Part shown: in pieces, positions 626-41,556 of the stretch
Layout: every line of letters begins with the position of its first letter
Position numbering within the stretch: the stretch's first letter is position 1
Origin: a virus
Direction: 5' to 3' (one strand)
IMG/VR virus record: IMGVR_UViG_3300020162_001010
Location: 1 to 42,348 of that record
DNA length: 42,348 bases
Made by a program: the position numbers and the translations under genes
The notes under the pieces: model-generated
The model's database searches: none
The model's input: only the letters and a program-made list of their open reading frames with translations
What the model was told of the DNA's origin: nothing

Positions 626-843
626 TCAACAACATCCCCCAGTTCATTGCAGACTCCGAAGCCTTCCGTACATCTGTCATCTCAGAAATACACAAGGAGA
701 TTGCCCATCAGGTGTTTGGTAACCCAACCAGATACCCTTCTTCTGACTCCAGAGTACGAGAGCACAGGACTATGGGACTTGGCTCCTTCAGCCACTATGG
801 AGCCGGCATACGAAGACACGGTGTACAGATCACCAATAAGTAA
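622..843 (+). CDS. Small protein of unknown function, possibly frameshifted
   Basis: The ATG overlaps the terminase stop, a typical coupled start, giving 73 residues (MINNIPQFIADSEAF...). I do not recognise it. The first about 40 residues look like an ordinary phage protein. After about position 735 this frame becomes basic and Gly/His-rich, while the +1 frame gives a more typical acidic sequence (LLLTPEYESTGLWDLAPS) ending at 847. Either an indel, a +1 frameshift or two alternative products could explain this. A terminator follows directly at 851. The location after the small terminase suggests a packaging accessory, but no function can be named. Confidence 0.5.
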   Translation: MINNIPQFIADSEAFRTSVISEIHKEIAHQVFGNPTRYPSSDSRVREHRTMGLGSFSHYGAGIRRHGVQITNK

Positions 844-850
844 ATAAGAA

Positions 851-880
851 ACCCCCGGTTTATCGCCGGGGGTTTTATTT
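851..880. terminator. Bidirectional Rho-independent terminator
   Basis: A perfect 8-bp stem pairs ACCCCCGG (851-858) with CCGGGGGT (866-873) around a 7-nt loop. It is followed by TTTATTTT on the + strand and, read from the other side, by TTCTTATTT on the - strand. It sits between the convergent ends of the rightward terminase block and the leftward operon, so it can stop transcription from both sides. Confidence 0.9.
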
Positions 881-903
881 TGCACATGCTGAACTGGAAG
901 GGT

Positions 904-1236
904 TCACTTCCTGTCTACAACGTCTTTCAAGTCATCAGGTACTGGCTGTCCAAGACTAATCAACAGATTAGCCAGTGTTGTAGCGATAACATGCAGCCTG
1001 TCTTTACGGGCCTCGGAGTTAGCGTTGCCCCGAACACGTTCAATGCCAAGAGACTCTTCCACCTGAGCAATTGTATGAGGGCTTACCTCGATGTTCAGTT
1101 CTCTCTTGATTTCTCTTTGTACCTGAGCACGGGTAAGACGCTGGGCCTTTTCTTTATTCGTGGTAAGCCATACCAAAACCTTTGCAACACTGCTAACACT
1201 TCTGGACGTTGTAACGCCGGGGGTAGCACTCGACAT
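904..1236 (-). CDS. Putative helix-turn-helix protein
   Basis: This is a 110-residue protein and the last gene of the leftward operon. Residues about 33-70 (LTRAQVQREIKREL followed by VSPHTIAQVEESLGI) have the length and spacing of a helix-turn-helix, with a likely recognition helix at the second segment, so DNA binding is inferred. The rest is helical with no motif I recognise. The ATG is well supported by AGGAG eight bases upstream on the minus strand. The bidirectional terminator lies just beyond the stop. It could be a regulator or a small DNA-binding accessory protein; there is no evidence that it is a lysogeny repressor. Confidence 0.65.
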   Translation of the reverse strand: MSSATPGVTTSRSVSSVAKVLVWLTTNKEKAQRLTRAQVQREIKRELNIEVSPHTIAQVEESLGIERVRGNANSEARKDRLHVIATTLANLLISLGQPVPDDLKDVVDRK

Positions 1237-1257: not shown

Positions 1258-1488
1258 CTAACGAAGAACTGACTGAATACGCTCTCTCAAACCTTTGTCC
1301 AGATTCTTAACCCTCAGCACCTCTTCAAGAGTTGCCCGATACTCTGACTCTTTTCTTTTCATTACCGAGTCAGCACACAGATCACTGACAACGATCTGAC
1401 CTGTGTCTTTGTCCAAGGCTGTACCGCAATGGAATCCTTCGAAGTGCCTACGGTACGGGGCACCACAGTTTGGACAAACATCACTCAC
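1258..1488 (-). CDS. Small zinc-ribbon protein
   Basis: The 76-residue protein starts with CPNCG (residues 5-9) and has a further Cys at about 21 (FHCGT) and one at about 38, which suggests one structural zinc site. The C-terminal half is charged and helical. It begins with GTG and overlaps the end of the upstream ribbon-helix-helix gene by four bases, so the two are probably translationally coupled. GGTGG lies upstream of the start. I do not recognise a family; small zinc-ribbon proteins are common in phage early operons. Confidence 0.7.
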   Translation of the reverse strand: MSDVCPNCGAPYRRHFEGFHCGTALDKDTGQIVVSDLCADSVMKRKESEYRATLEEVLRVKNLDKGLRERIQSVLR

Positions 1489-1682: not shown

Positions 1683-2175
1683 TTTGCTTCTCCAAGTATG
1701 ATGTCAGTATTTCACTGTAGTGCTGTGCTTTCTTCAAGTCATCAATACCTCCTTTGGCAGAGTATCGCATGATGTACTTGAGCACGTTTCCTTCCAGATA
1801 TCCGATAAACTTTTCTGGAGTGAAATTAGCTTCCATTACTTGAATAGGCTGAATGCCCATATTCATGTAATGGTCACCTCCAATTTGCCTTTTCATTGGA
1901 CTTATCTTGTCTTCCACTGGTTTCCTCTTTTCCTCAGAAACATTCGATGGAACATTAGGCCACACTATCCTTTCCACACAGTCTAAATCGTGATCTTTGG
2001 ACTCTACTTCACATATACCGTCAGCAGTCCACCGATATTTTCTCGCAGGTTCTCCAGCCTCAAACACCTGACCAGTAAAGCAATAAGTAGCACCGGGAAT
2101 TTGTTTCTCGACTACCGCTTTCCATCCACATCTTGTTTTCCACCATCCGAACCCAAACTTTAACTGTCCACTCAC
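1663..2175 (-). CDS. DUF3310-containing phage protein
   Basis: The protein has 170 residues. The C-terminal third (about 98-160) matches the DUF3310 pattern: GGDHY, then IQPIQVMEA, then LEGNVLKYIMRY, KGG and DDLKKAQHY. This domain is common in phage early regions and is sometimes annotated as nucleotide-kinase-like, but its role is not established. The N-terminal about 90 residues are Trp- and Cys-rich and not recognised, so this is a longer two-part version of the usual short protein. The GTG start is preceded by AGGTGA and shares a 17-nt initiation region with the gene starting at 2669. Confidence 0.8.
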   Translation of the reverse strand: MSGQLKFGFGWWKTRCGWKAVVEKQIPGATYCFTGQVFEAGEPARKYRWTADGICEVESKDHDLDCVERIVWPNVPSNVSEEKRKPVEDKISPMKRQIGGDHYMNMGIQPIQVMEANFTPEKFIGYLEGNVLKYIMRYSAKGGIDDLKKAQHYSEILTSYLEKQIGKQEG

Positions 2176-3359: not shown

Positions 3360-4040
3360 CTATTGCTCCTGTGCAGTTTCGATTGCTTCAACAACTGTAG
3401 GTACTGTACTCCTCAGAACTTCCCAGCAAGCATCAGCAACCATCCGATGCTCTTTCTGAGCCTCTATCGACCTCCTGATCTTGCAATAATGAATCCAACT
3501 TCTGAGTGACCCGGTAACCAACAACTCAGACATTGTCAGTCCTTCAGGCAGGATTACTCTGGCGACTTCTTTTGCAATATCCGATTCAAGTGCTGCCTCA
3601 TAGATCTGCTGCGTCAATTGAATAACTTGCTTCTGTGCCTCTTGCCACCATGCCGCAGTTAGACTGCCTTCGCGACACTCAATCGAAGACTGCCTATTCG
3701 TCTGATCCTGCAAACGACATTCTCGTAAACAGAACTCAGTAACCGGAGCATACCTTTGACTGAACTCCTGAAAGAACATTGACCTGTGCCTGATTATCTG
3801 CCTTGAGATATCTCTGGGAACAGTTATTGAAATACCGATAAACGCCATATCGAGAGGTGACCAGTGATGTTTTCTGATCAAGTATTTTACCAGCTTTGGT
3901 CCTGTTAAATGATTGTCCCTGTTTGCTGGATTGCTGACTCTGGCAACCCATGCCACGTACTCCTCGATGGTCTTGCAGCCTGTGTACTCAGCAGGCTCTG
4001 TTTTTGAAATCAAATGTGCTTTTACTTCAAACGTCTTCAT
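3360..4040 (-). CDS. thyX: Flavin-dependent thymidylate synthase
   Basis: ThyX makes dTMP from dUMP using FAD, NADPH and methylene-tetrahydrofolate, supplying thymidine for phage replication. The 226-residue length fits the family. The signature RHRx7SxR is present as RHR at 84-86, Ser94 and Arg96. The N-terminal CxTIEEYVAWVARVS and the HHWSPLDMAF segment (about 58-67) are also family features, and a C-terminal helix with RSWIHYCKIR contributes to the nucleotide site in relatives. It is the only clear metabolic enzyme in the leftward operon and overlaps the upstream coiled-coil gene by four bases. Confidence 0.96.
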   Translation of the reverse strand: MKTFEVKAHLISKTEPAEYTGCKTIEEYVAWVARVSNPANRDNHLTGPKLVKYLIRKHHWSPLDMAFIGISITVPRDISRQIIRHRSMFFQEFSQRYAPVTEFCLRECRLQDQTNRQSSIECREGSLTAAWWQEAQKQVIQLTQQIYEAALESDIAKEVARVILPEGLTMSELLVTGSLRSWIHYCKIRRSIEAQKEHRMVADACWEVLRSTVPTVVEAIETAQEQ

Positions 4041-4804: not shown

Positions 4805-4852
4805 TGTTCTTCCTTTCAGAAACGCTACGTGGAACTCACCATCACGACACAA

Positions 4853-5378: not shown

Positions 5379-5810
5379 ATGAAATACTCATTACTCACAC
5401 TGCTGATGTGTATCTGCTGTCTTCCACCTGAGCCTCAATGGACAACCACTGGAACTGTAATCAAAGTCATTGACGGTGACACTGTGGACATCGAGGTAAA
5501 GCGGGTAATCCGGGTAAGACTACTTGACTGCTGGGCACCCGAGTCCAAGATTGACTCCAGAATCCCTCCAGAAAAACAGCAAGCTGAGAAAGCTGCTGGA
5601 TTGAGATCAAAGCAAAGTTTGGTTACACTCGCACTAAACAAGCCTATAATACTCTCAGTACCCACAGATCCATCTGGTGACCTGATGAAGTCTACGACAA
5701 TGGGCCGTGTACTTGGAAGAGTATGGCTGTCTGGGGATACTAAGTCTCTCTCAGAACATCAAGTCGGGTCTGGCAACGCCACTATCACAAAACGAGATGA
5801 ACTCAAGTGA
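5379..5810 (+). CDS. Exported thermonuclease-like (SNase) nuclease
   Basis: The 143-residue protein has an N-terminal hydrophobic signal (MKYSLLTLLMCICC), so it is probably exported or lipid-anchored. The staphylococcal-nuclease fold is shown by VIKVIDGDTV (residues 27-36), VRLLD with Arg47, APE with Glu55, and GRVLGRVWL with Arg110. Arg47, Glu55 and Arg110 match the catalytic Arg, Glu and Arg of the family. The Asp that helps bind calcium three residues before the Glu is Trp52 here, so metal binding may differ. Such enzymes cut DNA or RNA in the envelope or outside the cell. AAGGAG lies 8 bases before the ATG. Confidence 0.88.
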   Translation: MKYSLLTLLMCICCLPPEPQWTTTGTVIKVIDGDTVDIEVKRVIRVRLLDCWAPESKIDSRIPPEKQQAEKAAGLRSKQSLVTLALNKPIILSVPTDPSGDLMKSTTMGRVLGRVWLSGDTKSLSEHQVGSGNATITKRDELK

Positions 5811-6617: not shown

Positions 6618-7448
6618 ATGAGATACCCCCTTGTCTTGATAGGCTGTTTGTTACTCACACAGACCTTGTTTGCTGATGATAACAAAATTGTGCTCCCGAC
6701 AAACACGGTTACTGTTACTCCAGTAACCGTTCCAACTCCTACAGACTCTGCAGTTACTAAACTCGCTTCTGACGAATGGTACGTTGTTACCTCACAGATT
6801 CCTCTGCTTGTGTTTTCATTCCCTGAAGGAGTGTTAAGCATTGACAGGGACTCTGGACCTCAACGTATTCGAGGTAAGTTTGCTGGCGGTACTGGCACTG
6901 TTGAGACAAGGGTGTTCTCTGCTCCTTTTGTGTACTTGATTACGGCCAATAAATCAGGTACGGTTGAACTGGCCCTTGTTCCAAAGAGTGCTGAATCAGA
7001 AGCAGACGCCATACGGCAGACTCTGACCGTCTCTGGAACAGGGCCACAACCTCCTCCAAAGCCTGTAGACCCTCCTGTTCCAGTCGATCCGCCAACTCCG
7101 AAACCTCCTGAAGGATTTAGGGTCTTACTGTTGATTGACGAGACGTGTAACCTTGATCAGGCAAACGCTGTCAACTCATTACGTCTGATAAAATGGCTGG
7201 ATGAAAATTGCACTAAAGATGGTGACAAACCAGACTGGAGAATGTGGGACAGAACCACTATCTCTGACAGTAATGAACTTAGCAAAGAGACTGAGTTGTG
7301 GCAAAAACTATGGTCTGAAGTAGCGTCCAAAGTCCCATCAGGTGCTCAAGTACTTGTTATTGCTGACACTGACGTAAAAGTATTCCCGATCATCGACAGT
7401 GATTCTCTTCTCAGAAACATTCAAGCCGTTAAGGATGGTGACCTGTGA
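6618..7448 (+). CDS. Secreted protein with Pro-rich linker, unknown function
   Basis: The 276-residue protein has a clear signal peptide (MRYPLVLIGCLLLTQTLFA, cleavage likely before Asp20). The N-terminal domain (about 25-140) is beta-rich, a linker of repeated Pro-Pro and Val-Asp-Pro units spans about 145-170, and the C-terminal domain has FRVLLLIDE and AQVLVIADTDV strands typical of an alpha/beta fold. No catalytic motif is recognised. A TTG at 6606 could also start it, but ATG 6618 gives the best signal peptide. The gene overlaps the peptidase gene, so the two may work together in the envelope. Confidence 0.7.
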   Translation: MRYPLVLIGCLLLTQTLFADDNKIVLPTNTVTVTPVTVPTPTDSAVTKLASDEWYVVTSQIPLLVFSFPEGVLSIDRDSGPQRIRGKFAGGTGTVETRVFSAPFVYLITANKSGTVELALVPKSAESEADAIRQTLTVSGTGPQPPPKPVDPPVPVDPPTPKPPEGFRVLLLIDETCNLDQANAVNSLRLIKWLDENCTKDGDKPDWRMWDRTTISDSNELSKETELWQKLWSEVASKVPSGAQVLVIADTDVKVFPIIDSDSLLRNIQAVKDGDL

Positions 7449-8248
7449 GTTTTACCTCCAAACTCTACAAGAACGAAGTAATCATTGATGATGAATCCAA
7501 TGCCTACGATCACATGGTTGGTGAATACGGCAGAGGACTTGATTTGACAGACAGGCCCCACACAGACTTTGCTTACGAAGGGTTTGCGTCTCCATTTGAC
7601 CAGAGCCTGATAATTAACCCTAACGAGTGGCAAGCACGCATTCAGGAACGGGAAGAGCAGCAGGCCAGCCTATCAAATTTTATCAGGTACCGGAAACTCG
7701 ACCATAAAGACCAAGGCAGTACAAACTACTGCTGGATCAATGCTCCTGTGCATACGCTTGAGATTCGCAGGATGCAGCAGAACCAGAGATCAATTACTCT
7801 GTCACCTGCTTCTGCGGGTGCGATCATTAAGAACTTCCGTAACGTAGGCGGCTGGGGACTCGAAGCGATCAAGTTCCTAAACAGGTATGGTTGCGTTCCT
7901 GTTGACTACTGGCCAGCAAACGCAATTGATAGCAGATTCAAGACACAGGCAAACCAACTTCGAGCACTTGATTACCGCGTTCGTGAATGGATTGAGTGCC
8001 AACCACGAAACGTTGCTCAGATGGTATCTCTATCCCTCAGAAACTATCCAGGGGCTGGAGGATACAACTGGTGGGGTCATGAGATTACAATCATTGAGCC
8101 TGTATGGTTGGACGGTGAAGTAGCCATGCGTATCCGCAACTCATGGAAAGGTTGGGGCGACTACGGCTTCGGTATCCTTCGCGGAAGAAAAATGCTGGCT
8201 GATGACATTGTGTACTGTGTATCTGGATCTACTACCCAAGTGTCTTGA
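7445..8248 (+). CDS. Papain-like cysteine peptidase (C1 type)
   Basis: The protein has 267 residues. The papain signature is complete: DQGSTNYCW gives the oxyanion Gln90 and catalytic Cys96, WWGHEI gives His212, and IRNSWKGWG gives Asn232. This order and spacing define C1-type proteases. There is no obvious signal peptide; the first 75 residues are charged and could be a propeptide. It starts at GTG 7445 overlapping the upstream secreted protein gene. Such peptidases are unusual in phages. Its position among exported proteins and small membrane proteins suggests an attack on envelope proteins, perhaps lysis. Confidence 0.88.
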   Translation: MSFTSKLYKNEVIIDDESNAYDHMVGEYGRGLDLTDRPHTDFAYEGFASPFDQSLIINPNEWQARIQEREEQQASLSNFIRYRKLDHKDQGSTNYCWINAPVHTLEIRRMQQNQRSITLSPASAGAIIKNFRNVGGWGLEAIKFLNRYGCVPVDYWPANAIDSRFKTQANQLRALDYRVREWIECQPRNVAQMVSLSLRNYPGAGGYNWWGHEITIIEPVWLDGEVAMRIRNSWKGWGDYGFGILRGRKMLADDIVYCVSGSTTQVS

Positions 8249-8263: not shown

Positions 8264-8749
8264 ATGAACCTGCTGACTCACGCTTTATTGTTGTTTGTGT
8301 GTGCCACTGTTGCTGCCGAAGACTGGAAGTTCAAAGTAGTCCAACCATTGTCTTCTCCAGAAACTGTCAAAGCTGAACAGGAAGAGTATTACGTTGTGAT
8401 GTTCACTGCTTCATGGTGCGGCCCATGCCAGCAGTACAAGCGTTCTGGCCAATTAGACAACTTAAAGTCCGAGTTTCCTGTTACCGTCGTAGATATGGAT
8501 CAGAACAAAGAGTGGTGGAAAAGCAGAACGGTGGTAGACCCGTCCGGCAAACGAGTGTTACAATCAGGAATTCAGGCTATTCCATCATTTTGGTTATGCA
8601 GAAAGTCAGACCGATGGCCTCTTAAAAAATGGACTGGAAGTACTTCCTTGCAATCTATCAAAGATGAGGTTATAAAGTACTCCATACAAGAAACACCTTT
8701 CAGTGGTTCCCCTGCCCCTGCTCCTCCTCAAGAAGTAAATCAGCCTTGA
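8264..8749 (+). CDS. Exported thioredoxin-fold protein
   Basis: The 161-residue protein has a signal peptide (MNLLTHALLLFVCATVAA) followed by a thioredoxin fold. The active site WCGPC is at 51-55 after VVMFTAS, and the cis-proline loop AIPSFWL is at 105-111. The C-terminus is a Pro/Ala tail. WCGPC is typical of reducing thioredoxins, but activity in the periplasm also depends on an electron source. The gene lies between the papain-like peptidase and small membrane proteins, so it could open disulfide bonds in envelope proteins or keep the peptidase Cys reduced. Confidence 0.9.
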   Translation: MNLLTHALLLFVCATVAAEDWKFKVVQPLSSPETVKAEQEEYYVVMFTASWCGPCQQYKRSGQLDNLKSEFPVTVVDMDQNKEWWKSRTVVDPSGKRVLQSGIQAIPSFWLCRKSDRWPLKKWTGSTSLQSIKDEVIKYSIQETPFSGSPAPAPPQEVNQP

Positions 8750-28301: not shown

Positions 28302-29629
28302 AACTATTTATAGGTAAAGTACTAGACTCAGACATTCAAAATGTAAAAAACGCTGTGCCGTCAATTTTTCTTGGAAGTAAAACTTCAAACGGAGAAAGAC
28401 GACTCCACCTGCTTAGTGATCACACTGATCTAGCAGAAGCATTAAACGCTCTCAGCAGTATTTCTTCGTTCAAGCCTGATGTAAAACCATTAAAAGAAGT
28501 TGATGGCCTAGGCACCTCGGTAAAGAAAGCCTTGTCATTCCTAGGTATCACTGAAGACAGAGTATCACGATGGCTGGGTGCTCCATGTAACTGTGCAGAG
28601 CGTGTTGATAAGTTAAATAAACTCGGACAATGGGCGTCGTCAATACTCTCAGGAAAGCAAGAACCTCCACCATTCTACACAGAAGCAAAAGTAGTCATGC
28701 CGACCACAACAGTAGTAGGGTGTATTCATGAAGCCACAGCATTGCAGTTCAAACAATACATATCCGGAAAGATACCGGGAGTTGAGTTTGGATTACGTCC
28801 ACCAGAGTCAAGTCATAGGCGTATCATCGACACTGCTGGACACGCTGAAGCATTACGTGCTGAAGTAGTTAAATGGAATGGTGGAACAGATCGCCCTGTT
28901 GATGACGTGATGTATCTGAAAGGTACTTGGGAATACGCAGTCACCACTGTTGGTTCAAGGATGGTGACTACACTTCCGACAACACTTCGATCACTGGCCG
29001 CTGGAGGATTCACTGAACCTGATCTATACGTTGACGGTATTCTTTCCTCAGAAGATATCGACGCATCCTTGCTACTGCCTGTGAACCGTGTTCATGAGCG
29101 TCACAACGTCGGCACGTTCTCTCACTGGCATCTGACTTTACTGGACATGTATTCACGTAATCCATGGGCAGAGTTCTACGCAATCTTCCAAGATGACTTG
29201 ATCTGCGTGAAAAATCTGAAAGAGTATTTGCAAAATTGCCAATATCCTGAGAAATGTTACCTGAACCTCTTCTCATTTATGGAGAACGAAGTTACCATTG
29301 CTGGGCGTACCGGATGGGTCGAAGCTTATCGGTCAGCAAAAGGTAACCAATTGGGACGTGGAGCAGTGGGGTTGGTGTTCAAGCACGATGTGTGCGAAGC
29401 ACTACTCTCACAGCCACACATGATCACCAGAAGAACAGACGCACTGCGAAGACATCACTCATTGGATGGAGCAATCGTTCAAGCGATGAATGGTTCTGGA
29501 TTCAGTGAGTATGTTCACGCTCCAAGTCTGTTGCAACACACTGGCGAACAATCTTCAATGGGTAACCGAAAGCATCCGCTAGCTAAGACTTTTCCGGGAG
29601 AGGACTTTGATGCGTTGACCCTTTTGTGA
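28298..29629 (+). CDS. Glycosyltransferase-like protein with N-terminal extension
   Basis: In this 443-residue protein the N-terminal about 130 residues are unrelated, with a CNCAERVDKLNKLGQW segment around 97-112. From about 130 a GT-A-like domain follows: FYAIFQDDLI (about 293-302) would supply the metal-binding acidic pair, followed by GAVGLVFK, HHSLDGAIVQAM and HAPSLLQHTGEQSSMGN. Transfer of a sugar to a virion protein or host glycan is possible, with unknown substrate. It starts the group of three such genes. Confidence 0.7.
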   Translation: MKLFIGKVLDSDIQNVKNAVPSIFLGSKTSNGERRLHLLSDHTDLAEALNALSSISSFKPDVKPLKEVDGLGTSVKKALSFLGITEDRVSRWLGAPCNCAERVDKLNKLGQWASSILSGKQEPPPFYTEAKVVMPTTTVVGCIHEATALQFKQYISGKIPGVEFGLRPPESSHRRIIDTAGHAEALRAEVVKWNGGTDRPVDDVMYLKGTWEYAVTTVGSRMVTTLPTTLRSLAAGGFTEPDLYVDGILSSEDIDASLLLPVNRVHERHNVGTFSHWHLTLLDMYSRNPWAEFYAIFQDDLICVKNLKEYLQNCQYPEKCYLNLFSFMENEVTIAGRTGWVEAYRSAKGNQLGRGAVGLVFKHDVCEALLSQPHMITRRTDALRRHHSLDGAIVQAMNGSGFSEYVHAPSLLQHTGEQSSMGNRKHPLAKTFPGEDFDALTLL

Positions 29630-30704: not shown

Positions 30705-31447
30705 GCATACACGCATACATAGTTTCCGTGGATTATTCAGACCTACTTAACATTACCCTTCCATATAACAGGAATCATTTTGAAAACGTAACAGTAGTAA
30801 CAACAAAAGCAGACACACACACAAGAGCGGTAGCTATTAAGAATGAGTGTACCGTATTCAAAACGGATAGATTCTACGACCAAGCAGCCTGTTTCAACAA
30901 GTATGCCGCCCTTCAACAGTGCATCAGTGAAAGCATCACAGACTGTCGAAGTGACATAGTGTGTGTGATGGACGCAGATGTCATGTTTCCGAAAGTGATA
31001 GACTGGTCTTTCCTTGACAACCCAGCCAACGCTGATTGTTTGTTCACTCCAGAAAGGCACATGTGCAGAGACATTCCAGACTGTATGCCTCAGGAACCTT
31101 ACTGGAAATCCTACGAGAAAAACAAGGAGCAAGAATGGGCCGGGTACACTCAGATATTCAACATCAATGACAGTCACTTGCCTGAAACAGAAAAGTGGTT
31201 CTCTACAAACTGGACCCACGCTGGAGGTGCTGACTCTGAGTTTCAGGCACGCTGGCCGAAGTCACATAAAAAACGTCCCACATTCTCTGTGCTCCATCTC
31301 GGCAGAGAGGGAGTCAATTGGTGTGGCCGCGTTACTCCCACGTTGGATGGAGAAGTATTTCATCAAGCTGAACATCGCATAGCAAATATGAAATTCATGC
31401 GGGACAAACGAAAAACCACTGGGAATTATGATCATGAGAAACTCTGA
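30701..31447 (+). CDS. Glycosyltransferase-like protein, GT-A type
   Basis: The 248-residue protein has strand-helix order and a DxD-type motif in DIVCVMDADVMFP (Asp about 91 and 93). Later GGADSEFQARW and VLHLGREGVNWCGR match what is seen in small phage and bacterial glycosyltransferases. It overlaps the upstream GT-B-like gene by four bases, so the two are probably coupled. Substrate and acceptor are unknown. Confidence 0.72.
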   Translation: MSIHAYIVSVDYSDLLNITLPYNRNHFENVTVVTTKADTHTRAVAIKNECTVFKTDRFYDQAACFNKYAALQQCISESITDCRSDIVCVMDADVMFPKVIDWSFLDNPANADCLFTPERHMCRDIPDCMPQEPYWKSYEKNKEQEWAGYTQIFNINDSHLPETEKWFSTNWTHAGGADSEFQARWPKSHKKRPTFSVLHLGREGVNWCGRVTPTLDGEVFHQAEHRIANMKFMRDKRKTTGNYDHEKL

Positions 31448-31552: not shown

Positions 31553-32842
31553 ATGAACCTGACACAGATCCTGAGCAAGGCAAAGAAGCCTAAGACCGAA
31601 ATCAAGTCTACCGTTGTTCGAGTAGACAAGGCTTTCTGCTCAAACGTGATTGCTGACCTGAACAAGAAAAACCGCCCACACAGCAAAAGCCTGAGTGCTC
31701 TGTACGCAAACGAAATGCTTCGTGGTAAGTGGGCAACAAACGGTGAACCTCTGATCTTCGGTGTTGACGGCGAAGAAACGCACTTGGTTTCCGGACAACA
31801 CCGACTGCACGCTTTGCTGATGGTTCATCAGGAATTGGAATTGAAAGGTGCTGAGAAGTGGCCAGAAGCACAGACTGAGATTGACATGTGCATCGTGTAC
31901 AACGTTGCCATGGACACAGCAGACACGGTAGATACTGGCAAGAGTCGCAGCCATGCTGACGTGTTGTTCCGTGATGAAACAATCGACTCGATCATCCCTA
32001 AGGAGTGGAATGGTTCGGCAGCAAAGCGTAAGACTTGGACAAAGACCCTTGCTGGTGCTGCTCGCCTTGTGTGGTTGATTGAAGGGGGGGCTACTGTCTC
32101 TTCTGCTCCAAAGTTTCTTATCTCAGAAATGCTGGACTTCCTGAAGAAGCACAATCATCTGCACGAATTTGTGACGATGATTCTTGATGCTGATGATGGT
32201 GACGGTGGACATGGTGGTCTGAAGATGTCTCTGCCTTACCTTGCTGCTCTTTGCTACGTAGCGGCATTGGATACAGCATGGGATGACAATGAACTTCCAG
32301 AGATTGACACTGAGAAATCTGACGAGTTGAATGTCTTTATCAACCACTTGGCAGTTGGATCAGGCTTTGACAAGGGGAGTGCCCAGCACGCTTTGACAGG
32401 CTACTGGAACCAGTTAATGAGTCAGCCAGGAAGCAAAGACCGCGACCGTGAATGGGTAGGCCCATTCATCAAGGCTGTCAGAGCATTTTTGGCAAATGAA
32501 ACGAACCTCAAAGTTAATGACGTTAAACTGACCAAGAAAGAAAGTGAGAACTACACCGACTTTCCAGTGATGTTTGACGGCTGGCATACTTGGTGCTTTG
32601 AGAATACTGCAAGTATCAAAGCAGCGGCTAAGGATGCAACAGAGAAAGCAGAGGCAGCAAAACTTGGTCCTGTAGATAGCGAAGAGTTGTCTGACTCTGA
32701 TTCATGGAGTGAGGAAGAATGGGCACCTGATGACACAGCAGTTCCTACTCCAGAACCTGTTAAGACAGCAAATCCTAAGCCGATCAAGAAAGCACCTGTA
32801 AAGAAGAAGCCAGCAGCAAACATTGCCGGTGAGGATCTATAA
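31553..32842 (+). CDS. ParB/sulfiredoxin-fold phage protein
   Basis: In this 429-residue protein the N-terminal about 140 residues match the ParB-like domain seen in many phages: LYANEMLRGKW, then LIFGVDG and LVSGQHRLHALL (about 79-90), then VDTGKSRSHADVLF. A helical domain and a Pro/Lys/Ala-rich tail with an acidic stretch (SDSDSWSEEEWAPDD) follow. These proteins are thought to bind or cut DNA or to hydrolyse nucleotides; the exact role is not known. It opens the replication block. Confidence 0.75.
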   Translation: MNLTQILSKAKKPKTEIKSTVVRVDKAFCSNVIADLNKKNRPHSKSLSALYANEMLRGKWATNGEPLIFGVDGEETHLVSGQHRLHALLMVHQELELKGAEKWPEAQTEIDMCIVYNVAMDTADTVDTGKSRSHADVLFRDETIDSIIPKEWNGSAAKRKTWTKTLAGAARLVWLIEGGATVSSAPKFLISEMLDFLKKHNHLHEFVTMILDADDGDGGHGGLKMSLPYLAALCYVAALDTAWDDNELPEIDTEKSDELNVFINHLAVGSGFDKGSAQHALTGYWNQLMSQPGSKDRDREWVGPFIKAVRAFLANETNLKVNDVKLTKKESENYTDFPVMFDGWHTWCFENTASIKAAAKDATEKAEAAKLGPVDSEELSDSDSWSEEEWAPDDTAVPTPEPVKTANPKPIKKAPVKKKPAANIAGEDL

Positions 32843-33357: not shown

Positions 33358-33741
33358 GTGGACAAGCCTTGGAAGCAGTTTGAGCGATTTGTGGCAAGCA
33401 TCTTCTCTTCTACCAGAAACGCTCTTAGCGGCGGAAACAGCAAACTTACTCGATCTGACAGCATACACCCTCACCTGTTCATATCGTGCAAGTACACTCG
33501 GCACAACCATAAGCAGTTGAGAGACTTAGTAAAGGAGGAAAGAGAGAAAGCTGCTGTTGAGGGTAAAGTGGCAGTGTGTGTTGTGGGTGAGTTTGATGAC
33601 CGAGCAAACGCTTTGGTGATCATGCACCTAAAAGACATTAAACCATTTACAGAACTGGTATCTAATGGCACCGTACAGATTGATATGGTCACCGACAAGA
33701 AACGGCCTCAGCGTAAGCGGGCTGGAAATGTGGTTGGTTGA
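33358..33741 (+). CDS. PD-(D/E)XK nuclease, possible Holliday junction resolvase
   Basis: The 127-residue protein begins WKQFERFVASIF (Glu9), then GGNSK, Asp34 in TRSDSIHPHL, and ISCKY (Lys45), the layout of small Hjc-like phage resolvases. The usual Glu before the x-Lys is Ser43 here, which might lower or change metal binding. A resolvase would process branched replication DNA before packaging. It starts at GTG 33358 and overlaps the next nuclease gene by 14 bases. Confidence 0.65.
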   Translation: MDKPWKQFERFVASIFSSTRNALSGGNSKLTRSDSIHPHLFISCKYTRHNHKQLRDLVKEEREKAAVEGKVAVCVVGEFDDRANALVIMHLKDIKPFTELVSNGTVQIDMVTDKKRPQRKRAGNVVG

Positions 33742-34624
33742 CCGAACTGCTTTTGAGATATCTTACCTCAGAGATCTTGAAGCGGTAGAGCCTTGGAATA
33801 AAAACACGAACTACGGATCAATGGTTCAGGCAGGTATCGAAGGGTTCATCAAGACTCGACAACCCCGAGGTGCTGCCCGATTCATTGAAACTGAGTTTGA
33901 AAAACAAGTAAGGCAATATGAAGAGTACGACGACATTGCATGGTGGGCAGGTGTAGCACAAACTACTGTGTCTACTTGGATTGACCTGTACGGTAAAGAA
34001 CTTGACAAGTACCGAATTGATCAATCTGAAGCACACCACAAAATGACGTTGACGTTACCCTCAGGCCGTGAAATTGTTCTTCACGGTTACATTGACGGAG
34101 AGGGTGAAAACATTCTTATGGAGAATAAGACGCGAGGTGATTGGGATGATGACAAGATTGCTAAAGAAATTGACCTCAATCTACAGGTCAATATGTACAC
34201 TTTATTCTTCAATGCAAAACATGGCAGACTCCCGGAACGTATCTGGTACCAGCACATTCGAAGACCTCTTGGTTTCGGATACAGAGGGCCAAGGTCGAAA
34301 GCCAATGAATCAAGTGAAGACTTTCGACGACGACTTGGAGATGCAATTGACAAGGACCGTCAATATCACTTCTTCAGATATTTCGTAAAGCCTACAAAAG
34401 ATCGCTTTGAGCGGTTCATGCAGCTTGTGATGTATCCAATGTTGGAAAGTTTTCTGGACTGGTACGAATACATGTCGCACCCATACAGAGCACAGCAAGT
34501 GAATAAGACTCATTGGGTTACGCCTTATGGTCTGTACAATCCCTTCATGGAAGGAACACTTGAAAGGTTTAGAGAGTACCGCCTGAATGGGTCTACTCTC
34601 GGTTTACGTCCAAAGTCTCGATAG
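33728..34624 (+). CDS. Cas4/RecB-like PD-(D/E)XK nuclease
   Basis: In this 298-residue protein the nuclease motifs are HGYIDGEG (Asp123), LMENKT (Glu132 and Lys134), then QVNMY (Gln153 to Tyr157), the Q-x3-Y motif of RecB/Cas4-type enzymes. The four-Cys iron-sulfur cluster of Cas4 is not seen. It could be a 5'-3' exonuclease working with the Sak4-like ATPase downstream in recombination. The frame is open further upstream; ATG 33728 is chosen because it gives the typical N-terminus. Confidence 0.8.
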   Translation: MWLVDRTAFEISYLRDLEAVEPWNKNTNYGSMVQAGIEGFIKTRQPRGAARFIETEFEKQVRQYEEYDDIAWWAGVAQTTVSTWIDLYGKELDKYRIDQSEAHHKMTLTLPSGREIVLHGYIDGEGENILMENKTRGDWDDDKIAKEIDLNLQVNMYTLFFNAKHGRLPERIWYQHIRRPLGFGYRGPRSKANESSEDFRRRLGDAIDKDRQYHFFRYFVKPTKDRFERFMQLVMYPMLESFLDWYEYMSHPYRAQQVNKTHWVTPYGLYNPFMEGTLERFREYRLNGSTLGLRPKSR

Positions 34625-34641: not shown

Positions 34642-35568
34642 ATGGCACCTCCAATACCCCCAAGGCCGATCAACAGGCCAAAACCCGCTGGGCAACCAGC
34701 ACGCCCTGCTGCAACCCCCTCAGTTAAGGCAGGATCGAATCCGTTTTACGATCTGATGGAAGAGTCGTCCAACCACGGACGCTTCCTGATGATCTACTCA
34801 GAAGCCGGTGAGGGAAAGACGACTCTTGCTGCTCAGTTTCCGGCACCGATGTTCATTACAACCAGTGGTGAACAGGGTATCCAACTTTACAGGCAGCAAG
34901 GACTGGTTCCAAAGAGCGTCCCTGTTATCCCTCTAGCACCTCTCTTTGACCACCAGAACATCCCATCGGGTTCAGGGCACCCAGGCTGGTTGAAGCTAGT
35001 TGAGACGTTGGAACGCTTCAAAGACGCTGACCATAGTTACCAGACATTGGTTATCGACTCGACAAGTGGACTGCAAGACTTGTGCTTCCAGCACGGGGCT
35101 TCAGTCTTGTTTGACGGGGATATGACCGGGAAAGACTACTCAGACTTCTACAGAGGTTACAGCAAGTCTGCTGAGAACTTCTGGGCCGGTGAGTTTCTCC
35201 CTCTGTGTCTGGCTATCGTAGCAGCAGGAAAGAACGTTGTACTGATTGCCCACAGCACATTCAAGACTGTGGCAAACCCTGTAGGGCCGGACTTTGACCA
35301 ATTCCGACCAGCATTGATGAAGTCAATCTTCGAGTACACAAAGAAAGACCTCCACGGTATTTATTTCCTTGGCCGTGAAATTCGAGTGACAATCGACTCG
35401 AAGACAAAGAAGAAGTCCGCTACTGGTGACCGCAGGTTTATCGGATTATCCCCTAATCCGTACTATGTAGCCAAGTCTTGGGTTACTCCTCAAGGAGTGA
35501 ACGAAATTGAGTGTGGTGAGAATGCCCGTGAAACATGGGCAGTGTTGAAAGAAGCAATTGGTCTGTAA
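34642..35568 (+). CDS. Sak4-like RecA-fold ATPase
   Basis: The 308-residue protein has a Pro-rich N-terminus (1-30), then a RecA-type core: Walker A SEAGEGKT (53-60) and Walker B TLVIDS (135-140), and a later VLIAHSTF that matches the sensor region. Sak4-type proteins are phage single-strand annealing recombinases helped by an ssDNA-binding protein; the next gene may be that partner. AAAGGA lies before the ATG. Confidence 0.82.
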   Translation: MAPPIPPRPINRPKPAGQPARPAATPSVKAGSNPFYDLMEESSNHGRFLMIYSEAGEGKTTLAAQFPAPMFITTSGEQGIQLYRQQGLVPKSVPVIPLAPLFDHQNIPSGSGHPGWLKLVETLERFKDADHSYQTLVIDSTSGLQDLCFQHGASVLFDGDMTGKDYSDFYRGYSKSAENFWAGEFLPLCLAIVAAGKNVVLIAHSTFKTVANPVGPDFDQFRPALMKSIFEYTKKDLHGIYFLGREIRVTIDSKTKKKSATGDRRFIGLSPNPYYVAKSWVTPQGVNEIECGENARETWAVLKEAIGL

Positions 35569-35625: not shown

Positions 35626-36417
35626 ATGAGTGAAGCATCATCCCTGACCGACCTGATGAAACAGAACGCTCGTCTGAAGAAGCACGCTGCAGTAGCTAAG
35701 AAAGTCGTTGCTCAGCGTGACTTTGCAGGTCCAGAGGGAGAGTACATTTGCCGGTTTGAACAGGTAGTGATTCGCAAGAAAGGCGATAAGACCTACTTCA
35801 TTCTGGAGTTTAAGGTTGACGGTGAAGTGGAGGGACAGGAAGAACAAAACGGAGCACGTCTTGCAATCCTTCACGGTCTACATGACACAGAACGCAGCAC
35901 ATTGGAACAGGCTCTTGAACGTCTGATGACTGACATTCAGAAGTTTGACATCGACACTGCGAATATGGAAATGGATCAGATCGACAAAGCCCTGAAGGCA
36001 TGTGTTGGTCAGAACGTTCTTATCCGTTGTGTGAAAGCAAAGAAGACTGGTCAGACCGGGTACTACTACAACCTGCAGGGCATCGCTTCAGCAGGCCGCG
36101 AGACGCCTGATTACTCTCTCTCAGAAACACCCAAAGCAACCCAACTTACAACCATCACTCATATTCCAGACGACGCTGCTGACGAATGGAATGAGGAAAT
36201 GGCTGAGGTTGCAGAAGAAGTGGCAGGTGAAGACCTTGATGAAGTATCAGCGACTCCTTCAGACTGGATTGGTTACCCTGTCAACTACAAGCCAGCGAAG
36301 TCACCAAAGGCTTTAGAGTTTACAGTAGAATCAGCAGACGATGAAGCCGGTACAGTGGTGCTGATTCGTGACGGAAAGAAACTGAAAGCTAAGTTCAGTG
36401 ACCTGATTCTCGACTAA
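35626..36417 (+). CDS. Putative ssDNA-binding protein
   Basis: In this 263-residue protein residues about 30-165 are strand-rich with many Lys and aromatic residues (YICRFEQVVIRKKGDKTYFILEFKV, then VLIRCVKAKKTG and YYYNLQG), as in phage OB-fold-like proteins. A strongly acidic stretch (about 185-210) follows and another small domain ends the protein. The location directly after a Sak4-like ATPase and before polymerase suggests a single-strand DNA-binding role. AGGAG lies 6 bases before the ATG. Confidence 0.55.
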   Translation: MSEASSLTDLMKQNARLKKHAAVAKKVVAQRDFAGPEGEYICRFEQVVIRKKGDKTYFILEFKVDGEVEGQEEQNGARLAILHGLHDTERSTLEQALERLMTDIQKFDIDTANMEMDQIDKALKACVGQNVLIRCVKAKKTGQTGYYYNLQGIASAGRETPDYSLSETPKATQLTTITHIPDDAADEWNEEMAEVAEEVAGEDLDEVSATPSDWIGYPVNYKPAKSPKALEFTVESADDEAGTVVLIRDGKKLKAKFSDLILD

Positions 36418-36680: not shown

Positions 36681-38668
36681 TGCTTTCATTCGACACAGAA
36701 ACAACCGGCCTTTCTTTTCAACACGGGTGTACAACGTTTGCAATAGGGACATACGATGGGAAAGCTTATAGATCGTGTATTGTCGATGTTGACCCCGTTA
36801 CTCGCAGTCGTAATAGTGAGTTCCCTTGCAATAATATACGTGTTCAGTTGGACAAAGCTGATCTGGTATGTGCTCACAATGTGAGATTCGATATAAAGGC
36901 TCTGTGCGAAGCCAGAGTCTACAACAGTGAAGAGCCTTGTAACCCGAAGTTTTGGGATAAGTTCATCGACACAGGCACACTGGCTCACCTGTACTGCTCC
37001 ACTGATATGATCGGATTGGACAACCTGACAAAGAAGTACCTTGGTAGAGATTATCAAGAAGACGTTGACCTGACTAAGGTAGTCAATAAATGCCGTGACC
37101 TTGTTCGTAAACACTCTGACTCATATTGTCGTGGTTGGGACATAGCGAGTGCTGACGGGGGCCACAGCAGTTTCAAGGCAGCGAAGAAAAGCAATAAATG
37201 GAACAGGATGGACTACTGGCTTCCAGCGGCTGTACTTGAAGGCGTACCAGCATCTCAACGTCCACAACTACCTGATGAATCACTATCCTCTGTCCTCAGA
37301 AATTATCTACGGGCAGACGTTGTAAACACATTTGAACTGGCTGAATTCTACTTCCACGAATTGACAGAGCGGCACCCAGACAACTTGGCAGAACTCCTCG
37401 AAGTAAACAGACAGATCGAACACGTTCTATGGAAAATGGAGTTGAAAGGTGTGTGGGTACGTAAGACAGAACTCGATAACGCATTTGAGGCGTGCAACCA
37501 CTATATCTCATTACTCTCACAAACCTGCAAACAGATATCCGGCATTGAAAACATCACAGATGCAAAACTCAGAACACTGTTTTTCGATAAGTGGAAACTC
37601 GAACCGATTAAGAAAACCAAGGGAGGACAGGCATCTGTAGACGCCGCTACACTACTGGCTTTACACAGTAGTGTATCTGAGTCTGAACACGATGCAGAAA
37701 AGCACAAGTTCTTTGGGTGCTATCTGGCTCTGAAGAAATACGAGAAGAAGCAACAGTACTTAACGACGTACAGAAACGTTACATGTAAAGGGTACTTGAA
37801 TCCTTCATTCAAATCTGTCGGCACTACAACAACCCGTATGTCTTCAGAAAACCCAAACATTCAACAGGTGACCAAAGCAAGCAATCCATACGAAGAAGAC
37901 GCTCCAGACATCGCAGCATGGTTGAAAGCCTCTCCTTCAATGCGTTCTGTCTTTGGTCCTTCACCGGGCTATTGGTGGCTTGATTGTGATTACTCCCAGC
38001 TTCAATTGAGGATATTCGCAGCAGTCACACAAGAACAAGAAATGATGGATGCGTTTGATAAAGGCTGGGACGCACACGACTTCGTAGCCCGTAAAATCTT
38101 TGGAGTTGCTGACAGTGACTCACCAACAAAGGCACAAAGACGTATTGCAAAGAATGTAAACTTCGGATTCATTTTCGGTGCATCACCAAAACGCATTGAG
38201 AAAACTGCCGGAGTTAAGGGACTATGGAATACGGTACTTGCAATGTTTCCGAATGCTCACGCATTCATCGAGCAGACCAAAGCTGACATTCGAGAGAGAG
38301 GATACATCGAGACTTCAGGCGGTTACCCGCTGGAACTTCGAGACAATATAAATCCTTACACAGGCCGTCTTGAGAAAGCGGCTCATGCCGGAGTGAACTA
38401 CATTGTTCAGGGAACTGAGGGAGTCATTGTAAAGCGTGCGATGCGTCTGTGCGATGATTATCTTACCTCAGAATTTCCTGAAGGGCGACTGGTTCTCCAG
38501 TGCCATGATGAATTAGTATTCGAAGCACCAAAGTATTTTCCAAAGAAGCATGTGTGGAACTTAACTGATCTGATGGAGCAGGCAGCAGCAGACTACGGCG
38601 TCAAAGCCCCTGTTGATCCTGAACTGGTTACGACTTGCTGGGACAAATCTGTAAAGGTACGACGATGA
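36680..38668 (+). CDS. Family A DNA polymerase with 3'-5' exonuclease
   Basis: The 662-residue replicative polymerase has exonuclease motifs FDTETTG (Asp5, Glu7), HNVRFD (67-71) and YLRADVVNT. Polymerase motif A is DYSQLQLR (437-444), motif B RRIAKNVNFGFIFG (Lys491, Phe495, Phe499), motif C CHDE (608-611). The residue at the usual steric-gate Glu is Gln442, and the motif B Tyr is Phe499, both unusual. It lies before primase and helicase, a complete set for phage DNA synthesis. Confidence 0.95.
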   Translation: MLSFDTETTGLSFQHGCTTFAIGTYDGKAYRSCIVDVDPVTRSRNSEFPCNNIRVQLDKADLVCAHNVRFDIKALCEARVYNSEEPCNPKFWDKFIDTGTLAHLYCSTDMIGLDNLTKKYLGRDYQEDVDLTKVVNKCRDLVRKHSDSYCRGWDIASADGGHSSFKAAKKSNKWNRMDYWLPAAVLEGVPASQRPQLPDESLSSVLRNYLRADVVNTFELAEFYFHELTERHPDNLAELLEVNRQIEHVLWKMELKGVWVRKTELDNAFEACNHYISLLSQTCKQISGIENITDAKLRTLFFDKWKLEPIKKTKGGQASVDAATLLALHSSVSESEHDAEKHKFFGCYLALKKYEKKQQYLTTYRNVTCKGYLNPSFKSVGTTTTRMSSENPNIQQVTKASNPYEEDAPDIAAWLKASPSMRSVFGPSPGYWWLDCDYSQLQLRIFAAVTQEQEMMDAFDKGWDAHDFVARKIFGVADSDSPTKAQRRIAKNVNFGFIFGASPKRIEKTAGVKGLWNTVLAMFPNAHAFIEQTKADIRERGYIETSGGYPLELRDNINPYTGRLEKAAHAGVNYIVQGTEGVIVKRAMRLCDDYLTSEFPEGRLVLQCHDELVFEAPKYFPKKHVWNLTDLMEQAAADYGVKAPVDPELVTTCWDKSVKVRR

Positions 38669-39423
38669 AATTATTCAGTCACATTGAAGTTGCTTACGAA
38701 GAAACAGACCAAGACTACACAACAAATTGTCTATGGTGTGGTTCAGAAAAGTTATCTGTAAGTAAAGCTGAAGGCCACGTATTCCAATGCTGGTCATGTA
38801 AGCAGACAGGCAATGCCCTGTCCTTCATGCGTAAGTTCTACGAACACCTGCCTGACCTGACTCCCTCACAGGCTAAAGCATATTGCCAGAAGAAGAAAGG
38901 AGTTAATCCACAGACGCTTCGATCTGAAGGAATCAAGTACTCTGACGGGTACTTCTGGTTTCCAATATACAATGTGAAAGGCCAGATAATCGCCCTTCAC
39001 AAATACAATACAGAAAACAACATCGCCTACGCTTCCCCGAAGCCGTGGTCATGCTCTGTACTGGGGTTGAGTAAACTTACTTCTTCCTCAGAAGTATGGG
39101 TGGCTGAAGGACACGCTGACTATCTGGTCATGCGTTATGTATTGAGCAAAACACCTGGAGCACCTGACTTGCTGGGTACGTGTGGCTCAGGCTTCTCAGG
39201 ATCGTACCTGCACCTCTTGGACGGTAAAGACGTAGTTTTGCTCTTTGACAACGACGAAGCAGGCCAGCAGGGCGTACAGAGCGTTGCACGGCGTATCAAG
39301 TCTTCTGGTCATAACGTGAAGTCTCTCAACTACATTGACTGGACTCGGGTAACTGTTCCATCACACGTTGTAATTCCAGACAAGTTTGATATTCGTGATC
39401 TGTACAATGAGGTGGTAAAATGA
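38665..39423 (+). CDS. DnaG-type primase
   Basis: The 252-residue protein has a CHC2-type zinc ribbon at Cys22, Cys25, Cys42 and Cys45 (CLWCG and CWSCKQTGNALSFM) followed by a TOPRIM domain with VWVAEGHADYLVMR and LLFDNDEAGQQG. It would lay RNA primers for the polymerase. No helicase-binding or helicase domain is fused; a separate helicase is encoded at 40240. ATG 38665 overlaps the polymerase stop. Confidence 0.9.
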   Translation: MKLFSHIEVAYEETDQDYTTNCLWCGSEKLSVSKAEGHVFQCWSCKQTGNALSFMRKFYEHLPDLTPSQAKAYCQKKKGVNPQTLRSEGIKYSDGYFWFPIYNVKGQIIALHKYNTENNIAYASPKPWSCSVLGLSKLTSSSEVWVAEGHADYLVMRYVLSKTPGAPDLLGTCGSGFSGSYLHLLDGKDVVLLFDNDEAGQQGVQSVARRIKSSGHNVKSLNYIDWTRVTVPSHVVIPDKFDIRDLYNEVVK

Positions 39424-40076
39424 ACGTACTGGTAGCTTGTGAAGAGAGCCAAACCGTATGTAAGGCTTTCAGATTCAAAGGCCACAGAGCGTTTTCGTGC
39501 GACATGCAACCTTGTTCAGGAGGATACCCAGAATGGCATTTTCAAGTAGACATACGGAAAGTACTGCACAACAAAACAATCAAATGGGATCTTGTGATTG
39601 CTCACCCGCCTTGCACATACCTGACGAACGCCGGAGTAAGGCACCTGCATATCTATATCCCGCCAGTAAATGGTAAATTAGCACCTGTCAGTGGAGAAGA
39701 GCGTTGGAAAGCTATGTACGAAGGGTGTGATTTTTTCAACCTGTTTACCGATTACTCTCGTAAACATCCAAAAGTAAAAGTGTGTATTGAAAACCCAATA
39801 CCGCACAGATACGCCAGAGAACTTATCGGTAAGTACACTCAGTTAGTTCAGCCTTGGATGTTTGGACACACGGAGACGAAGGCCACCTGCCTATGGTTGA
39901 CCAATCTTCCTAATCTGGTACCTACAAATAACGTCAAGGCTGAGATGTTACTGCTTCCAAAGAAAGAACGCAGCAAAGTACATTACATGTCGCCGGGTCC
40001 AGAACGAGCAAAGTTGCGGTCTAAAACATACCAAGGCATTGCTGATGCAATGGCTGATCAATGGGGGAACCTATGA
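39420..40076 (+). CDS. C5-cytosine methyltransferase-like phage protein
   Basis: The 218-residue protein has the SAM-site start VLVACEESQTVCKAFRFKGH, followed by WDLVIAHPPCTYL, with the Pro-Cys catalytic dipeptide at 64-65, and IENPIPH in place of the usual Glu-Asn-Val. This short phage family is related to C5-cytosine methyltransferases, but a full target-recognition domain is absent. It may modify DNA against restriction or make a modified cytosine. It overlaps both neighbours by a few bases. Confidence 0.82.
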   Translation: MNVLVACEESQTVCKAFRFKGHRAFSCDMQPCSGGYPEWHFQVDIRKVLHNKTIKWDLVIAHPPCTYLTNAGVRHLHIYIPPVNGKLAPVSGEERWKAMYEGCDFFNLFTDYSRKHPKVKVCIENPIPHRYARELIGKYTQLVQPWMFGHTETKATCLWLTNLPNLVPTNNVKAEMLLLPKKERSKVHYMSPGPERAKLRSKTYQGIADAMADQWGNL

Positions 40077-40243
40077 CAGAAATCACCAGCAAATACCATT
40101 GCTCACGTTGTGGTAAAATATGCACACGCAAAGGCACAAAGCGGTGGATCAAGTCATACTGCACAACCGCTAAAGCAGACGTTCGTATGTGGAACATTGA
40201 GTACCTGAAATACGCTCCAAAGAAATTGAAAGACTCCCGATGA
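40073..40243 (+). CDS. Small zinc-finger-like protein
   Basis: The 56-residue protein shows CSRCGKICTRKG (three Cys) and a further Cys at about 30, which suggests a single zinc site. It is very basic. ATG 40073 has GGGGG upstream and overlaps the methyltransferase stop; its end overlaps the helicase start. Its function is unknown; binding of nucleic acid is plausible. Confidence 0.65.
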   Translation: MTEITSKYHCSRCGKICTRKGTKRWIKSYCTTAKADVRMWNIEYLKYAPKKLKDSR

Positions 40244-41556
40244 CCCTTGTAGATATAATTCGAGCATCATTGAAAGAGGTTATTCTGGATGAAGTAATTT
40301 CAATCCAGCCTCAACACTGTACTTCCTTCCAGAAACTCATGGAGATATACGAACAAGACATGACAGTGACAGAGTCTATTAAAGATTGCATGTCTCTGTG
40401 CATGGCTACTCACATCGCTGTAGCCCTCGAAGGCGATCCACTCTGGCTTTATCTTGTAGGAGCACCATCAAGTGGTAAATCAACCATCTGTGAACTCTTG
40501 GCTTCAGACGAAATTCATACACGATCACTTAGCAAGTTCACTGGCCTCGTATCTGGCTCAAGACAAGGAACTCACCTTATCCCCATGCTACAGGGTAAGT
40601 GCGTCATTATTAAGGACGGAACTCTGCTGCTTGAATCTACGCCGCAGGCACTGGCAAACGTGTACGGTGAACTCAGAGATATTTTCGATGGATCTCTTAA
40701 CGCTGAATACCGCAATGGCGTATCTGCTTCCTTCAGCAACATCTCTTTCGGAATGGTCATTGGCATTACAGAGCGAATCTACAGCCTCAACATGGCAGCC
40801 CTTGGAGAACGCTTCCTGCACTGCCGACTGGAAACAACGAGAGACACTGAGACTCTCCGCAATGCTAGAGCAATCCAGTCTATCTTCGAGTCCTCAGGAC
40901 GCACCAACTTCGAAGGATCAGAGACAGGTGACCAGCGATCATTCCCGAAGCAGCGTGCCTACACTGCTGGATTCCTTAGTCACCTGCACACAACACTTAG
41001 AACTGGTGACATCCTGCGACCACGTTATACTACAGATGACGTTCTGCTTATCCAGTCTCTGGCTGACACAATCGCCTGTAGTCGTGCCCAGGCCCCTCGA
41101 AGCAAAGAGTATGGATCTTCCTCAGAACTACTCTATGACGCACGCCCTGAGGCTTCTACGCGAGTCGTCAAGCAGCTTAGCCGACTTGCCCTCTGTCTGT
41201 GCTACGTCCTGGGTGTAGACTACATCAGTCCCAAGATCAGAGCGTTACTGACAAAAGTCACGCTGGATACCTCCTACAGCCGTCAACACACGATCCTGAA
41301 GACAGTGGCTTTATCGAACGGTCTTACACGCCAAAGCATTGCTGCACTGTCACAGATACCTTTAGAGACGATCAGCAGACGTATTGACGATCTGATATCT
41401 CTTGGTATCCTGACCACTGACACTGAATCTAATCGACCATCTCGTGGCCGGTCAGTGCCTACCCTTCACTGCACAGACTGGATCAAAGAAGCATTCCGCA
41501 AGGTGTACAACCATGTTGAAAAACGTCCGTATCCCAGACCCAAACAGAAACCGTAA
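40240..41556 (+). CDS. AAA+ ATPase, putative replicative helicase (MCM-like)
   Basis: In this 438-residue protein Walker A is GAPSSGKS (74-81), Walker B CVIIKDGT (121-128), and GITERI and LGERFLHCRL provide sensor and arginine-finger-like parts. The core layout resembles phage ATPases related to MCM helicases. A C-terminal winged helix (LTRQSIAALSQIPLETISRRIDDLISLGIL) would bind DNA. With primase and polymerase upstream, a helicase or loader role is likely. Confidence 0.78.
   Translation: MTLVDIIRASLKEVILDEVISIQPQHCTSFQKLMEIYEQDMTVTESIKDCMSLCMATHIAVALEGDPLWLYLVGAPSSGKSTICELLASDEIHTRSLSKFTGLVSGSRQGTHLIPMLQGKCVIIKDGTLLLESTPQALANVYGELRDIFDGSLNAEYRNGVSASFSNISFGMVIGITERIYSLNMAALGERFLHCRLETTRDTETLRNARAIQSIFESSGRTNFEGSETGDQRSFPKQRAYTAGFLSHLHTTLRTGDILRPRYTTDDVLLIQSLADTIACSRAQAPRSKEYGSSSELLYDARPEASTRVVKQLSRLALCLCYVLGVDYISPKIRALLTKVTLDTSYSRQHTILKTVALSNGLTRQSIAALSQIPLETISRRIDDLISLGILTTDTESNRPSRGRSVPTLHCTDWIKEAFRKVYNHVEKRPYPRPKQKP

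Follow-up and report, generated by a model that had tools for sequence, protein, structure and literature searches.

That some phages carry site-specific marks on one strand of their DNA has been clear since nicks in T5 were described in the 1960s, and what such sites do is still unexplained. In phage tf, 14 nicks have been found at TACT/RTGMC, all of them on the top strand and distributed across two convergent gene sets, and relatives of tf use the one-base variant TACTATGAC (PMC3517423). For a phage related to tf, nanopore reads show 13 one-strand coverage drops at WACTRTGAC, and in 61 related phages a one-strand motif is spread through the coding sequence without enrichment (PMC11780129). 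The nick sites of phiKMV-like phages are long and bipartite, CGACN5CCTA/CTCCGG, and the major nicks of T5 lie at R/GCGCRGG (both quoted in PMC3517423). Here we describe a dispersed, strongly one-stranded motif with the core CTCAGAA in the IMG/VR virus record IMGVR_UViG_3300020162_001010 (G000) and in its relatives. The window that we analysed is the whole record of 42,348 bases, which has the gene content of a tailed phage.

The motif resembles the sites of tf and the LUZ24-like phages in several respects. It is dispersed on one strand, is indifferent to gene direction, lies inside as well as between genes, and is conserved in divergent relatives with lineage-specific variants. On the other hand, the tf/LUZ24-like sites are nearly invariant 9-mers that occur 8-14 times per genome in one half of the genome and have physically demonstrated nicks, whereas the element described here is about 27 bp long, degenerate, evenly spread and known from sequence alone. 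It occurs about 20-60 times per genome in most of the relatives; the thresholds for weak sites are arbitrary, and this range is the honest one, with fewer sites in G012 and in fragments. One-strand sites are also shared with phiKMV and T5, and the phiKMV motif is likewise long and bipartite, but the sequences are unrelated, the phages (phiKMV is podoviral) belong to other groups, and their nicks were shown physically. A short near-invariant core is a property of tf that T5 does not have either; we did not find one here, where the CAGAA core is strong and the flanks are degenerate.

By direct count, CTCAGAA occurs 25 times on the + strand of the window and four times on the − strand (positions 3454, 3500, 11042 and 16143). 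The initial annotation of this DNA had put these numbers at about 25 and three, so that its + count holds and its − count does not. In 200 codon-preserving shuffles the motif occurs 6.6 ± 2.2 times on the + strand (maximum 12) and 3.1 times on the − strand. Since the shuffles match the − count but not the + count, the excess lies wholly on the + strand and the − count is that of chance. Among all 8-mers tested, CTCAGAAA is the strongest outlier against such shuffles (13 occurrences vs 1.4), and its complement is found once (vs 1.8). The shuffling ignores codon-pair context, but the leftward genes described below argue against codon pairs as the cause.

An iterative weight matrix lengthens the motif to TTTTTTTTCCTCAGAAATTCTCAAGGGG, with 42 sites on the + strand of the window and two on the − strand at an equal threshold. 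Since training and scoring on one set of sites introduces bias, we retrained the matrix without the window and then without each relative in turn. The matrix trained on relatives only finds 32 + and 3 − sites in the window, compared with 7.2 ± 1.9 and 2.5 in shuffled sequences, and a mirrored-matrix control finds just three and none. As the leave-one-out models agree and the mirrored matrix yields 3/0, circular training is ruled out as a cause of the bias.

The mean spacing in the window is 1.17 kb with a coefficient of variation of 0.76 (0.95 for random placement, p = 0.07), which is slightly evener than random; of the fairly even spacing of about 1.6 kb described initially, a weak tendency is left. 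Mean spacings are 1.0-1.6 kb in most genomes, and in several the sites are slightly evener than random. Counts per tenth of the window (5, 5, 1, 5, 2, 4, 3, 4, 3 and 4) are roughly even. We found no gradient of site density from the genome ends, and no link between the motif and DNA ends was seen.

The element is asymmetric, non-palindromic and bipartite, and consists of a pyrimidine tract, YCAGAAA, YTNTC and AAGGGG. AAGGGG follows 53% of the + strand CAGAA occurrences that have a good pyrimidine tract and 7% of those without one; because of this co-occurrence we regard the two halves as coupled. The longer, pyrimidine-rich 16-mer that the initial annotation had recognised is thus real, but the true element extends to about 27 bp and includes the coupled 3' half AAGGGG. 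Two near-variants placed at 8352 and 14309 exist as well, with coordinates that were off by a few bases (8347..8374 and 14306..14333, respectively). Base-pair covariation was absent from 403 distinct sites, and a hairpin, a single-stranded DNA structure or an RNA structure was rejected on this ground.

Next, we asked how the sites relate to genes. For this, a simple in-house routine predicted the genes of 12 genomes in both directions, and the matrix used for the gene-direction counts was trained on sites in rightward genes only. Leftward regions (57.7 kb in total) hold 47 + and 10 − sites, and their density of + sites is similar to that of rightward regions (415 kb, 269 + and 13 − sites). Part of the intergenic share of the leftward count may overlap Shine-Dalgarno complements; leftward genes proper hold 30 + and 8 − sites. 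We note that leftward genes in the relatives L023 (16530-19420) and G013 (37270-39737) have a ribosome-binding region in common, which reads CTCCCAAAAAATCnnnnnnGGGG on the + strand and resembles the main motif.

Sites outnumber those of the shuffles 4-16 fold in nearly every frame, whichever way the genes run (leftward frame 1, with only 2 sites vs 1.2, is the exception), and codon-preserving shuffles retain only about 10-20% of the sites. Frame +1, which reads Ser-Glu, is the commonest (160 of 261 sites in rightward genes). Of 359 sites, 66 are intergenic, at a coding fraction of 0.86, and 61 lie at most 200 nucleotides upstream of a gene start, where 61.0 are expected. No preference was seen for the 50-200 bases upstream of starts, nor for the first or last parts of genes. 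Because all frames are used, gene starts and ends are not preferred and the + orientation is kept in leftward clusters, the polarity is a property of the DNA strand and not of protein or transcription. This agrees with the initial annotation, which had seen sites in all three frames and inside two leftward genes (1933 and 3412; the site at 4815 is a further case) and had proposed a polarity or binding signal at the DNA level, beyond protein sequence. Codon shuffles, the use of all frames, the leftward genes and the divergent relatives all bear this out, and the strand-biased motif has survived both of the checks on which its authors had staked it, codon-preserving shuffles and conservation.

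We examined 11 longer relatives, which are metagenome-derived genomes and may be incomplete. With the leave-one-out models all 11 keep the one-strand bias (for example 60/7, 49/4, 32/1 and 24/1), although the relatives share some sites by descent and pooled counts are not fully independent. In every relative the motif-bearing strand is the one that codes for TerL and the polymerase. The core varies with lineage, being CTCAGAA in the window, G006 and G014, TTCAGAA in G002 and G001, and CCCAGAA in G011 and G013. Per relative, about 8-42% of the mappable window sites are kept at the same aligned position (lowest in G011, with 2 of 25, and highest in G002, with 11 of 26), less than 1% being expected at random; the remainder, and so most positions, have turned over. 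The site at 38458 in the polymerase gene is kept in 9 of 10 relatives, and other sites are kept in none. We read this pattern as one in which density is under selection and individual sites turn over.

Of 2.9 million viral contigs, eight hold a near-full consensus, and as every one of them belongs to this clade, the motif goes with the phage clade. In bacterial genomes we saw 17 scattered single near-full matches, which are not accompanied by phage genes and of which none is in a relative of this phage. The motif is absent from the distant polymerase relatives L055-L057. Sites are several times more numerous in this clade than in the phages mapped best, and they come from 12 or more divergent genomes; these numbers of sites and genomes give statistical power on what selection holds constant. 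Strand, rough density and the bipartite site of about 27 bp are constant, while exact position and gene context vary. Should the sites prove to be nicks, such interruptions are commoner and more elaborate than has been assumed; otherwise the sites represent a new polarity system.

The explanation that we consider best, although we hold it tentatively and at somewhat less than an even chance, is that these are site-specific single-strand interruption sites of a phage DNA-processing protein. What the sequences show directly is where the sites lie, that they favour one strand regardless of genes and transcription, and that relatives retain them; from these facts we infer that a protein binds the sites, that the phage encodes it and that it nicks the DNA. 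Such a protein would recognise the asymmetric bipartite site and would work on the DNA in one set direction over the entire linear genome, which is probably of the cos type. As a nickase, it would cut one chosen strand at about 20-60 places per genome, as happens in T5, the phiKMV-like phages and the tf/LUZ24-like phages. Two proteins that are conserved in the clade are candidates for a putative nickase. One is an HNH endonuclease (41444..41812, + strand, Pfam HNH 4.8e-11), which has homologous sequence in every relative whose contig spans this stretch. The other is a small conserved protein (33358..33741, + strand) of 127 residues, possibly a PD-(D/E)XK nuclease with invariant E9/D34/K45, which has no Pfam or PHROG match and whose model weakly resembles the archaeal Holliday junction resolvase Hjc (Foldseek E 0.04, mean pLDDT 72).

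Several observations weigh against interruption sites. Nicks are invisible in assembled sequence, which is the sole source of data here, and the motif is unlike any known nick motif and far more degenerate than the nearly invariant 9-mer of tf. The sites are also 2-4 times more numerous, and they do not cluster in one genome half as those of tf and its relatives do. One member of the clade, G012, has just 9-15 sites. The window proteins gave no tblastn match to tf (E up to 0.01), so that a relation to tf through shared proteins has to be rejected. The same is true of fragile contig ends at the sites, since the ends of fragment contigs are not enriched near them (6 of 44, with 6.4 expected). 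Because physical nicks are in our case deduced and not seen, we would for now keep the sites outside the families of nicked phages.

A quite different possibility, which we would also put a little below even, is that the element is a new genome-wide strand mark of double-stranded DNA phages, i.e. a long bipartite site, about one per kb on one strand, which sets the direction of replication, recombination or packaging without nicking and changes in sequence from lineage to lineage along with whatever reads it. Two rivals to nick sites, lagging-strand priming and polar recombination, are still live. In the first of these proposals replication would proceed in one direction (rolling circle) and the sites would start Okazaki fragments, about one per kb, through the phage primase or an accessory factor. 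The fixed strand throughout the genome and the mean spacing of 1.0-1.6 kb in most genomes, slightly evener than random in several, suit this proposal, and a zinc-ribbon/TOPRIM primase, a family A polymerase and an SSB-like protein are all encoded by the phage itself. However, DnaG-like primases read about three bases and single-strand initiation sites are usually hairpins, so that an unstructured site of about 27 bp without pairing covariation is unlike known primase sites; G012, moreover, lives with 9-15 sites, and we find the proposal doubtful. Control of recombination or of an exonuclease would also account for polarity, dispersed placement and site turnover, if the motif were the phage's private counterpart of Chi, recognised by a PD-(D/E)XK exonuclease/Sak4 set of its own. 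Chi sites are polar, over-represented on one strand and dispersed in genes, as the present sites are, and genes for a PD-(D/E)XK nuclease, a Sak4-like annealing protein and an SSB-like protein are present in the window. Yet known Chi sites are 5-8 bp long, not about 27 bp, and are read by host enzymes (RecBCD/AddAB). The full consensus is specific to the clade and bacterial genomes give scattered singletons only, and we regard this reading as unlikely.

We consider it distinctly improbable that the sites are a polarity signal for packaging or ejection, on which a translocating motor or a DNA-condensing protein would rely as it moves from the cos end. They cover the whole genome and keep one orientation with respect to the left end, close to TerS, at which seven contigs start, but their density shows no gradient from the ends, and we know of no double-stranded DNA phage with dispersed oriented packaging sites. 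For repressor, stoperator or promoter-type sites there is a precedent in the stoperators of mycobacteriophage L5 and cluster A, which are long, asymmetric, dispersed and mostly in one orientation. Stoperators lie close to the ends of genes and are oriented with transcription, whereas the present sites follow neither transcription (47 + vs 10 − in leftward regions) nor gene boundaries (61 of 359 close upstream of starts, as expected). As the sites are unconnected with where genes start or end and lie on the wrong strand in leftward genes, a promoter, stoperator or translation signal was rejected, and we regard a role in transcription as very improbable. Finally, there is hardly any room left for the view that the motif merely results from protein sequence or codon usage, or from one orientation being avoided. 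The prevalence of the Ser-Glu frame (160 of 261) would be in its favour, but shuffles keep only about 10-20% of the sites, and nearly all frames as well as leftward genes are enriched, and a Ser-Glu or codon-usage artefact is rejected on these grounds. In T7, EcoP15I sites are all in one orientation through loss of the other orientation, an effect of type III restriction. The single orientation is common to both cases, but here the + strand is enriched (25 vs 6.6) and the − strand is at chance (4 vs 3.1) and not depleted, and avoidance of type III restriction is therefore rejected.

Individual + strand sites of the window are given here with their scores from the matrix that includes the window and, where stated, from the held-out matrix trained on relatives only. 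At the left end they lie in the TerS gene (331..358, score 18.7, kept at this position in 3 of 7 relatives), in intergenic DNA (672..699, 19.8, held-out 19.6; and 1304..1331 with a CAGCA core, 17.3, held-out 11.2) and in three leftward genes, namely 1663-2175 (1924..1951, 21.5, held-out 21.0), the thymidylate synthase gene 3360-4040 (3403..3430, 18.7) and 4037-4852 (4806..4833, 16.5, held-out 16.0). Further sites follow at 5741..5768 (17.6), 7401..7428 (22.8, held-out 22.1), 8027..8054 (24.9, held-out 23.2), 8347..8374 (the CTCCAGAAACTGTC form, 21.8, held-out 17.2) and 12623..12650, a near-perfect consensus (25.9, held-out 25.9) whose position is kept in 6 of 8 relatives. TerL contains sites at 13746..13773 (16.4) and 14306..14333 (the CTTCAGAAACTGTC form, 24.9, held-out 20.3), the latter at a position that lacks a site in relatives. 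The portal gene has one at 15112..15139 (16.7); a further site lies at 16436..16463 (18.7), and the protease gene has one at 16937..16964 (14.9, kept in 5 of 8 relatives). We then find 19939..19966 (22.4), 21241..21268 (26.9, held-out 24.7), 22397..22424 (26.7, held-out 24.4), 23683..23710 (20.9), 26552..26579 (15.7), 27195..27222 (18.5, held-out 21.7), 29038..29065 (22.3), 31039..31066 (15.3), 32113..32140 (16.3), 32740..32767 (17.9), 33403..33430 (18.6) and 33758..33785 (16.5), of which the last two are each kept in 6 of 11 relatives, as well as 34943..34970 (15.9) and 36111..36138 (23.2). The DNA polymerase gene carries 37286..37313 (20.9) and the widely kept site 38458..38485 (23.9), the primase gene carries 39078..39105 (14.1), and the series ends with 40319..40346 (15.1) and 41112..41139 (14.7). 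There are two strong matches on the − strand, 1801..1828 (scores 17.9 and 18.0) and 235..262 (17.8 and 15.9), and the − total is at the shuffle expectation.

Among the genes of the window are those for the terminase small subunit (TerS, 83-625, Terminase_4), TerL (12752), the portal (14671), a ClpP-like protease (16472, assigned by reading its sequence), the capsid (17293), the PD-(D/E)XK nuclease (33665), the Sak4-like protein (34642), the family A DNA polymerase (36680) and the zinc-ribbon/TOPRIM primase (38635). A conserved protein with an SGQHRL motif (31553-32842; PHROG 5931, unknown function) is present in all relatives checked. The 20-kb core of the window has no match among GenBank phages (megablast), and no bacterial genome that encodes the terminase was found; IMG/VR holds many uncultured relatives with 56-71% protein identity (TerL/PolA). 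The left ends of the window, G006, G002, G010, G011, G012 and G014 start 80-150 bases upstream of the TerS gene. These seven contigs come from independent metagenomes, and most of them have ACG near position 5-8. In G002 the same 10 bases, GCCATGCGGA, stand at both ends. From the shared left ends and this terminal repeat, these genomes are probably linear and of the cos type. The right end of G012 has a long one-strand repeat array of the CCATCGCCACTG type.

We also see a second one-strand motif, RTTACT(C/G)NCA. As TTACTCNCA it occurs 14 times on one strand and not at all on the other in the window (13/0 in G013, 15/1 in G012), at positions 5391, 6651, 8256, 9250, 12333, 13880, 15772, 16614, 20339, 31332, 33219, 36798, 37511 and 37990. 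It is found in the relatives G012, G013, G002 and G011, with the lineage forms TTACTGTCA and TTACTCGCA. This second motif may represent the left half of the main site in variant form, and in G012 it is fused with the main motif as ATTACTCYCAGAA.

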